A DNA stretch of 64,000 nt from Acidimicrobiia bacterium (GTDB lineage: Bacteria; Actinomycetota; Acidimicrobiia; Acidimicrobiales; AC-14): positions 1 through 64,000 of the forward strand of contig JAHFUP010000019.1 of NCBI GenBank assembly GCA_023265025.1, in the 5' to 3' direction. A model generated the notes under the pieces. That model searched no databases. It saw nothing but the letters and a program-made list of their open reading frames with translations, and was not told the origin of the DNA. Numbering within the stretch: position 1 is the stretch's first letter; every line of letters starts with the position of its first letter. The position numbers and the translations under genes are program-made. This document shows, one piece after another, positions 25,228 to 28,336 of this stretch.

Positions 25228-26022
25228 TCACAGGCGCAGCGAACGGATGGCGCTGGCGATGAGAGGGGCCACGGTGAGCAGCCCGAAGGCGGGGAGTGTG
25301 CAGCTGACCAGGGGGAAGAGAAGCTTGACGGGGACCTTGCGGGCGGCCTCCTCGGCCCGCCGGCGCCGGTCGGCCCGGACCTCGTGGGCCAGACGCTCCA
25401 GGCCGGCCCCGAGCGGGGCGCCGTAGCGATCTGACGCGATGAGCGCGGCGACCAGCGGCCGGGTGGCCTCGCCGGCCCGCGCCGGGATGTCGTCGAGGGC
25501 GTCGCCCAGCCGGCGCCCGAGGTCGGCCTCGCTGCCCGCTTGGGCCAACTCGGCCCCGAGCGGGCCCGGTGACCGGCGGGCCACCGCGGCCACGGCCAGG
25601 CGGACGGTGAGCCCGGCGCCCACCGCCAGCACCAGCAGGTCGACCACGTCGGGCAGGTCGCGGGCGACGGCAGCCAGCCGGCGCCGGCGCTGACGGCGGG
25701 CCCGCAGCGCCGGCACCGACCACGCCACCAGGCCGGCGGGGACCGCCGCCGGCGGGAGGACCGGGAGGGCGAACGCCGCGGCGACCAGCGCAGTTCCGAG
25801 CCGTTGGGCCGTCGCCGGGTCGGCCGGGCGCCCGAGCCGACGGAGGACGGCGGCCCCCACGCGTTCGAACAGCAGCGCCACCGAGGCGGCGGCGCTACGG
25901 CCCGGCGCGGACCCCGGCTCGGGCGTCGACAGGGCACGGACCCTGGCCGGCGCCGGCCGGCGCCGCCAGCCAACGGCCAGCACGGCTACCGACCAGGCGA
26001 GGAACGCGACCGCCGCGCTCAT
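25228..26022 (-). CDS. tadC: TadC-type platform protein (T2SS F family)
   Basis: 264 residues with N-terminal and C-terminal membrane helices and the central T2SSF domain (RDLPDVVDLLVLAVGAGLTV, EVRADRRRRAEEAARKVPVKLLFPLV). It forms the inner-membrane platform of the Tad machine with TadB. Its ATG overlaps the stop of the second micro-ORF (ATGA). Confidence 0.85.
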   Translation of the reverse strand: MSAAVAFLAWSVAVLAVGWRRRPAPARVRALSTPEPGSAPGRSAAASVALLFERVGAAVLRRLGRPADPATAQRLGTALVAAAFALPVLPPAAVPAGLVAWSVPALRARRQRRRRLAAVARDLPDVVDLLVLAVGAGLTVRLAVAAVARRSPGPLGAELAQAGSEADLGRRLGDALDDIPARAGEATRPLVAALIASDRYGAPLGAGLERLAHEVRADRRRRAEEAARKVPVKLLFPLVSCTLPAFGLLTVAPLIASAIRSLRL

Positions 26023-26151
26023 TGGGCCGCCGCCTCCGGCGGCTGCCCCGCTGAGCGGGGCACTGTGTCCATCGATTCGCTCTCGCTCATTGGGCCGGCG
26101 CCTCCGGCGGCTGCCCCGCTGAGCGGGGCACTGTGTCCATCGATTCGCTCG
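26016..26151. repeat. Near-perfect 68-bp tandem duplication between tadB and tadC
   Basis: Unit 1 is 26016-26083 and unit 2 is 26084-26151, differing inside by only one base (GGGCCGC versus GGGCCGG) and at the last base. Each unit contains a strong hairpin (GCCCCGC-TCA-GCGGGGC on the minus strand). Period 68 equals a 24-codon frame (72 bases) minus a four-base ATGA overlap, so the duplication keeps the chain of coupled starts intact. Confidence 0.9.
26019..26090 (-). CDS. Micro-ORF 2 in the tad operon (23 residues)
   Basis: The frame MSESESMDTVPRSAGQ continues to a TGA that overlaps the tadC ATG. Its own ATG overlaps the stop of micro-ORF 1. The peptide is nearly the same as micro-ORF 1 over MDTVPRSAGQPPEA. 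No known domain. It is likely to act as a translation relay, with or without a peptide function. Confidence 0.5.
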   Translation of the reverse strand: MSESESMDTVPRSAGQPPEAAAQ

Positions 26152-26167
26152 CCTGCGGCTCGCTCAT
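26087..26167 (-). CDS. Micro-ORF 1 in the tad operon (26 residues)
   Basis: The frame MSEPQASESMDTVPRSAGQ begins with an ATG that overlaps the tadB stop and ends with a TGA that overlaps the ATG of micro-ORF 2. The four genes tadB, micro-ORF 1, micro-ORF 2 and tadC are thus joined by three ATGA junctions. The frame contains a 7-bp hairpin within the coding sequence. Confidence 0.5.
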   Translation of the reverse strand: MSEPQASESMDTVPRSAGQPPEAPAQ

Positions 26168-27060
26168 ACGTCGACCTTGGCCAGGCGCTGCATCCACAGC
26201 CACCCCACGGCGTCGAGGGTCAGGCCGGCGACCAGCAGGATCAGGCCCCCCGTGGTGTGGAGCAGGAACTGCGACGTTCGCGGATCGGTGGCCGCCGCGA
26301 ACGCCCCGAAGCCGACGGGCGCCAGCCCGATGACGAGGGCCGAGATCCGGGCTTGGGACGACAGCGCCCGCAGCTCGGCGGCGACCGCGATGCGCTCCCG
26401 AACCGTGGCCGCCACGCCGTCGACCGCCCGCGCCTGGGCGCCACCCGTCTCCGCCCCGAGGCACAGGGCGGCCACGCCGAGGCGCACCCCGGGCAGCGGC
26501 CGGCGCCGGCCCACGCCCTCCAGTGCGGTGACGAGGCTCGCCCCCTGACCCGCCTCCGCCGCGGCCCGGGACAGCTCGGCGGCCAGCACCCGGCCGGTGC
26601 CGGCCGCGGCGCCGGCCTCGGCCACCGCCTGGCGCAGCGACGCTCCCGAGCGCAACGACCGTGCGACCGCCTCCAAGGCGCCGGGCAGCGCCTGTTCGAG
26701 CCGCTCGCCGGCCCGCCCCCGCCGGCTGCGGACCAGCACGTACGGGCCGGCGGCGAGCCCGAGGAGGGCGACGCCGGCCAACCCCAGCCCGCCGCCGACG
26801 CCGGCCAGCAGCGGGCCGATGGCCAGCGCGCCGAGCCACGCCGTCCACGCCACCGCCGGCGGGACCGGGAGGTCGGCCTCGACCAGCGCGGCCGCCACCC
26901 GCTCCGGCGGCGCGACCGGCTCCCAGCGCCGGCGCTCGGCCGGCGCCGGCGCCTCGGCCAGCCGCCCGACGACGCTACCTCGCCGGGACAGCCGGTGGGC
27001 CTCACGAGCCAGGGCGCCGGCGGCGAGCACGGCGAGCGCGAGCAGGGCGGCGAGCGTCAT
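26164..27060 (-). CDS. tadB: TadB-type platform protein (T2SS F family)
   Basis: 298 residues. N-terminal membrane helix, a cytosolic linker, and the T2SSF domain (LEQALPGALEAVARSLRSGASL, ALCLGAETGGAQARAVDGVA) with C-terminal helices. It pairs with TadC at the base of the pilus. ATG 27060 is taken as start. The 160 bases separating it from tadA hold two long palindromes. Confidence 0.85.
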   Translation of the reverse strand: MTLAALLALAVLAAGALAREAHRLSRRGSVVGRLAEAPAPAERRRWEPVAPPERVAAALVEADLPVPPAVAWTAWLGALAIGPLLAGVGGGLGLAGVALLGLAAGPYVLVRSRRGRAGERLEQALPGALEAVARSLRSGASLRQAVAEAGAAAGTGRVLAAELSRAAAEAGQGASLVTALEGVGRRRPLPGVRLGVAALCLGAETGGAQARAVDGVAATVRERIAVAAELRALSSQARISALVIGLAPVGFGAFAAATDPRTSQFLLHTTGGLILLVAGLTLDAVGWLWMQRLAKVDV

Positions 27061-27082
27061 GGCCGGCTCCGTCCCGCGATCC

Positions 27083-27143
27083 GTGTGCATTCCGGGTCGT
27101 GGAATCGCCGGTTTCGGCCCGAATCACGACCCGGAACGCACAC
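27083..27143. repeat. Long inverted repeat 1 between tadA and tadB
   Basis: Arms GTGTGCATTCCGGGTCGTG (27083-27101) and CACGACCCGGAACGCACAC (27125-27143) pair over 19 bases with one mismatch around a 23-base centre. In the tad transcript this would form a strong stem. Confidence 0.85.
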
Positions 27144-27155
27144 CGCGGTCGCCCG

Positions 27156-27214
27156 GGTGCATTTCTGGTCGTGAAATCGCCCGTTCAGGCCCGGATCACG
27201 ACCCGAAATGCACC
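27156..27214. repeat. Long inverted repeat 2 between tadA and tadB
   Basis: Arms GGTGCATTTCTGGTCGTG (27156-27173) and CACGACCCGAAATGCACC (27197-27214) pair over 18 bases with one mismatch around a 23-base centre. It is a diverged second copy of the element at 27083. It ends seven bases from the tadA stop. Confidence 0.85.
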
Positions 27215-27220
27215 GGGAGC

Positions 27221-28336
27221 TCACGACGCCACCAGCCCGTCGGCGTCGGCGATCAGCCGGGTGCGGCCGCCGGCGTCGGAGGCACCCTCGACGACCTCGG
27301 CGACAGCGACGACCCGCCGCCGGCCCTCGGGGAACCGGGCGACCTGGACGACGAGGTCGAGCGCAGCCTCCAGTTGGCTGCGGACGGCGGCCAGCGGGAG
27401 CTGGACCTCACCCATGAGGACCATGGTCTCGAGCCGGCGCAGGGCGTCGTCGGGGCTGTTGGCGTGGCAGGTAGAAAGCGATCCCTCGTGCCCGGTATTC
27501 ATGGCCTGGAGCATGTCGAGCGCCTCCGGGCCCCGGACCTCGCCCACGACGATGCGGTCGGGCCGCATGCGCAGGGCGTTGCGGACGAGGTCGCGGATGC
27601 GGACCTCGCCGGCGCCCTCGGCGTTGGCCGGCCGGGCTTCCAGCCGGACGACGTGCTCGCGGGGCAGGTTCAGCTCGGCCGCGTCCTCGACGGTGATGAC
27701 CCGCTCCGCCGGCGGGATGCAGGCGGCGAGGGCGTTGAGCAGGGTGGTCTTCCCGGCCCCGGTGCCGCCGGAGACCACGAGGTTCCGGCGCGACGCCACC
27801 GCGCCGGCGAGCAACGCCGCCACCTCGGGGCCGGCGAAGTCGGCGAGCGGGACGGCCCGGGCGCCGAAGCGCCGCACCGTGAGGCACGGCCCGTCGACGG
27901 CCAGGGGCGGGACGACCGCGTTGACCCGGGACCCGTCGGGCAGCCGGGCGTCGACCAGGGGGGACGAACGGTCGACCCGCAGGCCGAGCGGAGCCACCAC
28001 CTTCTCGATGAGGTGCTCGATGGCGGCGGTGTCGAGGTCGATCGGGACCCGGACCAGGGCCCCCCGGCGCTCGATCCACACCCGACCGGGGCCGTTCACC
28101 ATGATCTCGGTGACCTCGGGGTCGGCCAGCAGGGGCTCGATGGCCCCCAGCCCACAGACGTCGGCCAGCACGCCGGCCACCAGCCGCCGGCGCAGCGCCC
28201 CGCCGAGCAGCGGCACCTCCTCGGAGACCAGGGCGGCCACCCGCTCGGCCAGCGAGCCGGTGCCGGCGTCGGCCAGCAACCGGGCGTGGATCCGGGCCTT
28301 GGCGTCGTCGAGCGGTGCCAGCGCGGCGGCACTCAT
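27221..28336 (-). CDS. tadA: TadA/CpaF secretion ATPase
   Basis: 371 residues of the VirB11-like family. N-terminal domain with ITEIMVNGPGRVWIERRG-type signature (EVTEIMVNGPGRVWIERR), Walker A SGGTGAGKTTLLNAL, Asp box VITVEDAAELNL, Walker B DRIVVGEVRGPEALDMLQAM and His box TGHEGSLSTCHANS. It powers Flp pilus assembly at the cytosolic face. The ATG overlaps the tadZ stop (ATGA). Confidence 0.93.
   Translation of the reverse strand: MSAAALAPLDDAKARIHARLLADAGTGSLAERVAALVSEEVPLLGGALRRRLVAGVLADVCGLGAIEPLLADPEVTEIMVNGPGRVWIERRGALVRVPIDLDTAAIEHLIEKVVAPLGLRVDRSSPLVDARLPDGSRVNAVVPPLAVDGPCLTVRRFGARAVPLADFAGPEVAALLAGAVASRRNLVVSGGTGAGKTTLLNALAACIPPAERVITVEDAAELNLPREHVVRLEARPANAEGAGEVRIRDLVRNALRMRPDRIVVGEVRGPEALDMLQAMNTGHEGSLSTCHANSPDDALRRLETMVLMGEVQLPLAAVRSQLEAALDLVVQVARFPEGRRRVVAVAEVVEGASDAGGRTRLIADADGLVAS

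Follow-up and report, generated by a model that had tools for sequence, protein, structure and literature searches.

On the minus strand of the window, by which we mean the whole 64,000-nucleotide stretch of DNA analysed here, tad-like genes and two very short reading frames follow one another in the order tadA-like, tadB-like, micro-ORF1, micro-ORF2 and tadC-like, with Pfam T2SSE and T2SSF domains recognised in the tad-like genes. The upstream tadB-like gene (26164..27060, its start codon picked by eye) and the downstream tadC-like gene (25228..26022) both match T2SSF, with E values of 3e-9 and 2e-15, respectively. Between them, micro-ORF1 (26087..26167) encodes 26 aa, MSEPQASESMDTVPRSAGQPPEAPAQ, and micro-ORF2 (26019..26090) encodes 23 aa, MSESESMDTVPRSAGQPPEAAAQ, in agreement with the 23-26 residues given in a preliminary description of the locus; neither has a Pfam match. 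The three ATGA junctions reported there to chain tadB, the micro-ORFs and tadC are all present on this strand: the first (26164..26167) overlaps the tadB stop with the micro-ORF1 start, the second (26087..26090) the micro-ORF1 stop with the micro-ORF2 start, and the third (26019..26022) the micro-ORF2 stop with the start codon of tadC, recognised as native from empty sites in relatives.

The two micro-ORFs lie in a direct repeat of 67 nt at 99% identity and a spacing of 68. That much of the near-exact 68-bp units described earlier stands; measured from RTGA to RTGA, the true unit lengths are 77 and 68 nt. Unit 1 (26091..26167, 5′ ATGAGCGAGCC ... GGCCCA 3′) matches a covariance model built from 36 units, model R1, with E 4e-18, and unit 2 (26023..26090), which is without 9 nt of the tip of hairpin 1, does so with E 9e-15. 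Nor is the period of 68 special for coupling, as had been supposed: any length of 2 modulo 3 holds the register, and 77 and 68 both do. The palindrome GCCCCGC-TCA-GCGGGGC, already noticed in both units, is one of three hairpins in the element (hairpin 2; 26113..26129 in unit 1 and 26045..26061 in unit 2, from sequence and family covariation). Hairpin 1 includes the start codon and spans positions 1-25 of the unit (26143..26167 in unit 1, from covariation of positions 1 and 25), and hairpin 3 lies at 26097..26111 in unit 1, with one mismatch in that copy, and at 26029..26043 in unit 2 (from covariation and sequence).

A BLAST search of its own genome with the region found copies on eight other contigs, with E values down to 4e-23. 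Since, in addition, a 20-nt core occurs twice in the window against 0.01 expected, the repeat is not a product of chance. Nine exact matches to the pattern of the 5′ module are found in the own genome besides the window's. Among 60 relatives searched, 11 genomes gave matches (the own genome included, and two with one weak match each), often in tandem with a period of 77. The covariance model placed the family in 17 of the order's 298 genomes (Acidimicrobiales-type MAGs, the own genome among them) and matched no other genome in a 396-genome sample of the phylum, a search that filtered more strictly and scored few candidates in each genome, so that its counts are lower bounds. When the exact 27-nt 5′ module was sought in one genome each for 84,980 species, it turned up in 37 stretches, every one from a record with the label Acidimicrobiales, Acidimicrobiia, Actinomycetes, Actinobacteria or Actinomycetota, and in no record among them named as a mycobacterium. 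An Rfam search gave only matches far below family thresholds, and literature searches, confined to open-licence papers and therefore weak evidence, brought up no earlier description of elements of this kind from the lineage.

Most units are 68-78 nt long, typically 77, and 14 of the 94 distinct sites hold 2 to 5 matches in tandem, a copy number that rests on the assembly of genomes taken one per species and mostly drafts. In two places (L260, and L002 at 1501-1866), a run of N breaks an array of four or more identical units. The genes beside the units are mutually unrelated and include rapZ, ruvX-mltG, clpP, atpG-atpD, der (named from its two GTPase domains) and a MerR regulator; another target is the gene of a PALP-family (threonine-synthase-like, thrC-like) enzyme that follows an ACT-domain protein gene. 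Copies in YX3bin29 and YX2bin34 (L281, L282, L284, L287, L304 and L306) have only the 27-nt 5′ hairpin module in common with the window's unit; their 3′ part is different, several having GGACCGAAGGGAGCACCG before the ATGA. The 5′ module looks fixed and the remainder appears to vary by subfamily.

Junctions before orthologous genes were compared across relatives, and both filled and empty sites were found. At tadC, a bare RTGA start comes directly after tadB in four relatives (G034, G006, G009 and G003), and in G002 the letters ATGAGGGCGGCCCG before the ATGA are a 14-nt remnant with the register intact. The rapZ junction is filled in G000 and G002 and empty in G001, where the upstream sequence continues directly into ATGAGCGAG. 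The atpD junction is filled in G001 and empty in G000 and G002, and that of der is filled in G002 and empty in G001, with an unrelated spacer of ~80 nt in G000. At both atpD and der the unit begins with G, and the start codon of the empty site is ATG, retained on the right. The left RTGA is therefore the unit's own, and the target keeps its start directly 3′ of the insert. Comparison of these sites thus shows the insertion point to be immediately 5′ of the native start codon, and from atpD and der the RTGA of junction 1 at the tad locus is inferred to be the unit's. The threonine-synthase-like junction is filled in G000, empty in G001 and occupied by a different insert in G002 (L156); this insert, of ~100 nt where the window's genome holds the element, also ends beside GTGAGC and possibly belongs to another start-codon-targeting family.

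The unit keeps a strict orientation relative to the downstream gene. A downstream gene could be assigned at 87 of the 94 distinct sites, and at 82 of these 87 that gene can be reached by translation beginning at the start codon of the unit, through stop/start overlap or in-frame fusion. At 51 of 85 sites the first TGA of the unit additionally terminates an upstream gene, and hence the target is a start codon whether or not an upstream gene overlaps it. Alternative-frame controls are uninformative, frame +1 meeting the TGA of the RTGA at once and frame +2 being the downstream frame, so length classes were used for a test of register. Of the 55 sites that are not purely 77-nt steps, 46 have preserved the overlap, with 4 fused and 5 broken. 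When every length class other than pure 77 is given a single count, the overlap survives in 24 of 33 (p 4e-6 relative to one third), although some chains in this test exceed the element or cross N runs, and shared ancestry inflates register statistics. At least four 76-nt variants (L067, L011, L090 and L110) stay chained via a second internal ATGA or GTGA. This comparison of lengths is to be read as support for selection on register, not as proof of it.

The open frame could suggest that the micro-ORFs encode a conserved functional small protein, and indeed none of the 41 canonical 77-nt units has an internal stop in the micro-ORF frame. Since pN/pS in that frame is 1.00, however, the peptide is not what is conserved. 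Entropy is similar over the codon positions, paired columns vary less than unpaired ones (0.47 versus 0.83 bits), so that constraint tracks pairing, and subfamilies differ in both sequence and length. With the absence of a Pfam match, these observations make a functional peptide extremely improbable, and the reading was set aside as disfavoured.

In the three helices, pairing is kept in 95.7% of cells versus 92.3% (sd 0.3) after shuffling, both partners have changed in eight pairs where 2.4 would be expected, and pairing falls to 32-56% when the partners are slid out of place. Hairpin 1 pairs position 25 with the start-codon letter at position 1. Across 87 distinct modules these two positions are G-C in 49, A-T in 24, T-A in 1, A-C in 12 and T-C in 1, and never G-T; the association of A/G with T/C has a Fisher p of 1.4e-12, which is uncorrected for relatedness and inflated by shared ancestry. 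Position 25 carries 0.62 bits of information with position 1, the next-best column 0.27. In one array (L082), two adjacent units differ solely at positions 1, 13 and 25, with one paired change. The stem core GAGCGA/GAGCGA is predicted to form tandem G.A pairs around two G-C pairs. Folded as DNA, a single unit is not unusually stable (z -1.0). The unit pair folded as RNA is unusually stable, and its z of -3.4 is partly due to the two near-identical copies pairing with each other.

The preliminary description had proposed a ribosome relay that sets the TadB:TadC ratio, or a copy-number-variable tuning element. The three in-register ATGA junctions speak for such a tad-specific device, as do the register retained in degraded units elsewhere and the 14-nt in-register remnant of G002, and ATGA coupling as such is maintained across the whole repeat family. 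However, the same unit family precedes unrelated housekeeping genes, on which ground tad-specific regulation was rejected, four relatives have the orthologous tadB-tadC junction without the unit, and ~40% of copies stand at starts with no recognised overlapping upstream gene. The description had itself named relatives with one or no unit, and frames out of register, as evidence against its proposal: such relatives exist and speak against a conserved tad function, whereas truncated units elsewhere are mostly in register. Its idea of a variable copy number stands to the extent that arrays of 1 to ~5 units differ between sites and species. We consider a dedicated tad device very unlikely, and any tuning of the TadB:TadC ratio by the units is probably incidental.

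Dispersal, empty sites, placement, orientation, register, covarying structure and the lack of amino-acid constraint are established at the level of genome comparison, and we put at roughly 83% the probability that the two micro-ORFs are tandem copies of a 77-nt miniature mobile repeat, similar to the mycobacterial MIRUs, that keeps the operons it enters translatable. A unit (RTGAGCGAGCC...CCCG) would have inserted immediately 5′ of the tadC start, at a junction that already had an ATGA overlap, and tandem duplication would have followed, with unit 2 losing a 9-nt hairpin tip. The unit would supply its own RTGA, of which the TGA serves as the stop of the upstream gene and the RTG as the start of a short frame free of stops, and this frame would close at a TGA overlapping the target's own RTGA. 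Terminating ribosomes could then re-initiate at each RTGA and downstream translation would be preserved. The spread of the unit would be selfish or neutral, and may have proceeded by recombination or gene conversion instead of transposition.

As to what moves this repeat, the apparent preference of target starts for RTGAGCG, which resembles the unit's own 5′ end, could be explained by recombination over short homology as well as by a recombinase whose core is RTGAGCG. An enzyme dedicated to the repeat, a recombinase or transposase that recognises RTGAGCG start codons, rather than general recombination at short homology, is compatible with a mobile repeat as one of two possible movers, and we give it slightly less than an even chance. 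The exact placement 5′ of RTGA at five sites, the strict orientation with the downstream gene and the conservation of the hairpins as nucleic acid instead of peptide argue for it; against it, the sole candidate gene sought, the Y1 transposase (PF01797), gave no match in any surveyed carrier among the 60 relatives, own included, all this in draft genomes. An IS605/RAYT mobiliser with guide pairing to the target RTGA was rejected on this absence, and guide pairing also because the covarying letter at atpD and der is the unit's own and not the target's. The other possible mover is ectopic recombination or template switching between the 5′ end of the unit (RTGAGCGAG) and similar start codons. The empty rapZ site matches 9 nt of the unit, and the letters after RTGA in the final start codons are G in 77%, C in 65% and G in 56%, an apparent preference. 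However, 7-9 nt is short for homologous recombination and some targets (RTGACG) match less well, and we regard this route as unlikely.

MIRUs have been used for tuberculosis typing for decades, and to our knowledge their movement and their effect on expression are unsettled. They are repeats of 46-101 bp at 41 loci (PMC3914561), of which the senX3-regX3 MIRU has 77-bp and 53-bp units between the two genes (PMC4213456), and the review PMC12548453, citing Supply et al. (1997), presents them as apparently mobile sequences that enter at start codons, which places an internal ORF in -4 nt coupling with the gene. The present unit is of the senX3-regX3 size, falls within the MIRU length range at many sites per genome, occurs in dispersed copies and in tandem arrays whose number varies between sites and species, and sits at start codons, where its internal ORF is joined to the downstream gene by the same -4 nt coupling. 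This likeness, drawn from descriptions of MIRUs, is one of organisation. The hosts differ, being Acidimicrobiales-type genomes and not mycobacteria, and a hairpin that includes the start codon was not found described for MIRUs. By this analogy, the element would work like a MIRU in a new lineage. A bolder and more tentative proposal, to which we give rather less than half a chance, is that it represents independently evolved, non-mycobacterial miniature elements that target start codons, are transparent to translation, carry a start at the foot of a conserved hairpin (tandem G.A core, GNA tip) and are moved by a factor recognising RTGA starts.

Two other types of short repeat bear comparison. 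REP elements, which Y1 (RAYT/IS605-type) transposases mobilise, occupy intergenic positions and keep no start-codon register; the present element shares with them short dispersed copies, hairpins that are conserved and, at the foot of the hairpin, a conserved tetranucleotide, and differs in that no Y1 transposase (PF01797) was found in its surveyed carriers. Rickettsia palindromic elements lie inside genes and are translated in fusion. They are likewise small and palindromic, with an open frame that tolerates translation, whereas the present unit is placed after a stop and before a start, each of which it restores. If a second family outside mycobacteria is confirmed, supplying a stop together with the next start would be a general strategy, and the empty sites, covarying structure and graded decay of the family offer comparative material for finding the mobiliser. 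The family also cautions annotators against taking every such micro-ORF for a small-protein gene.

A second dispersed repeat is present on the minus strand at 27078-27222 of the window, between the tadA-like and tadB-like genes, and consists of two strong palindromes in tandem (TGCATTTCGGGTCGTG...). It has no match in ten less related genomes, one in G001, seven in G002 and ~30 in the own genome (some places counted on both strands), and is a separate, genus-level palindromic family.
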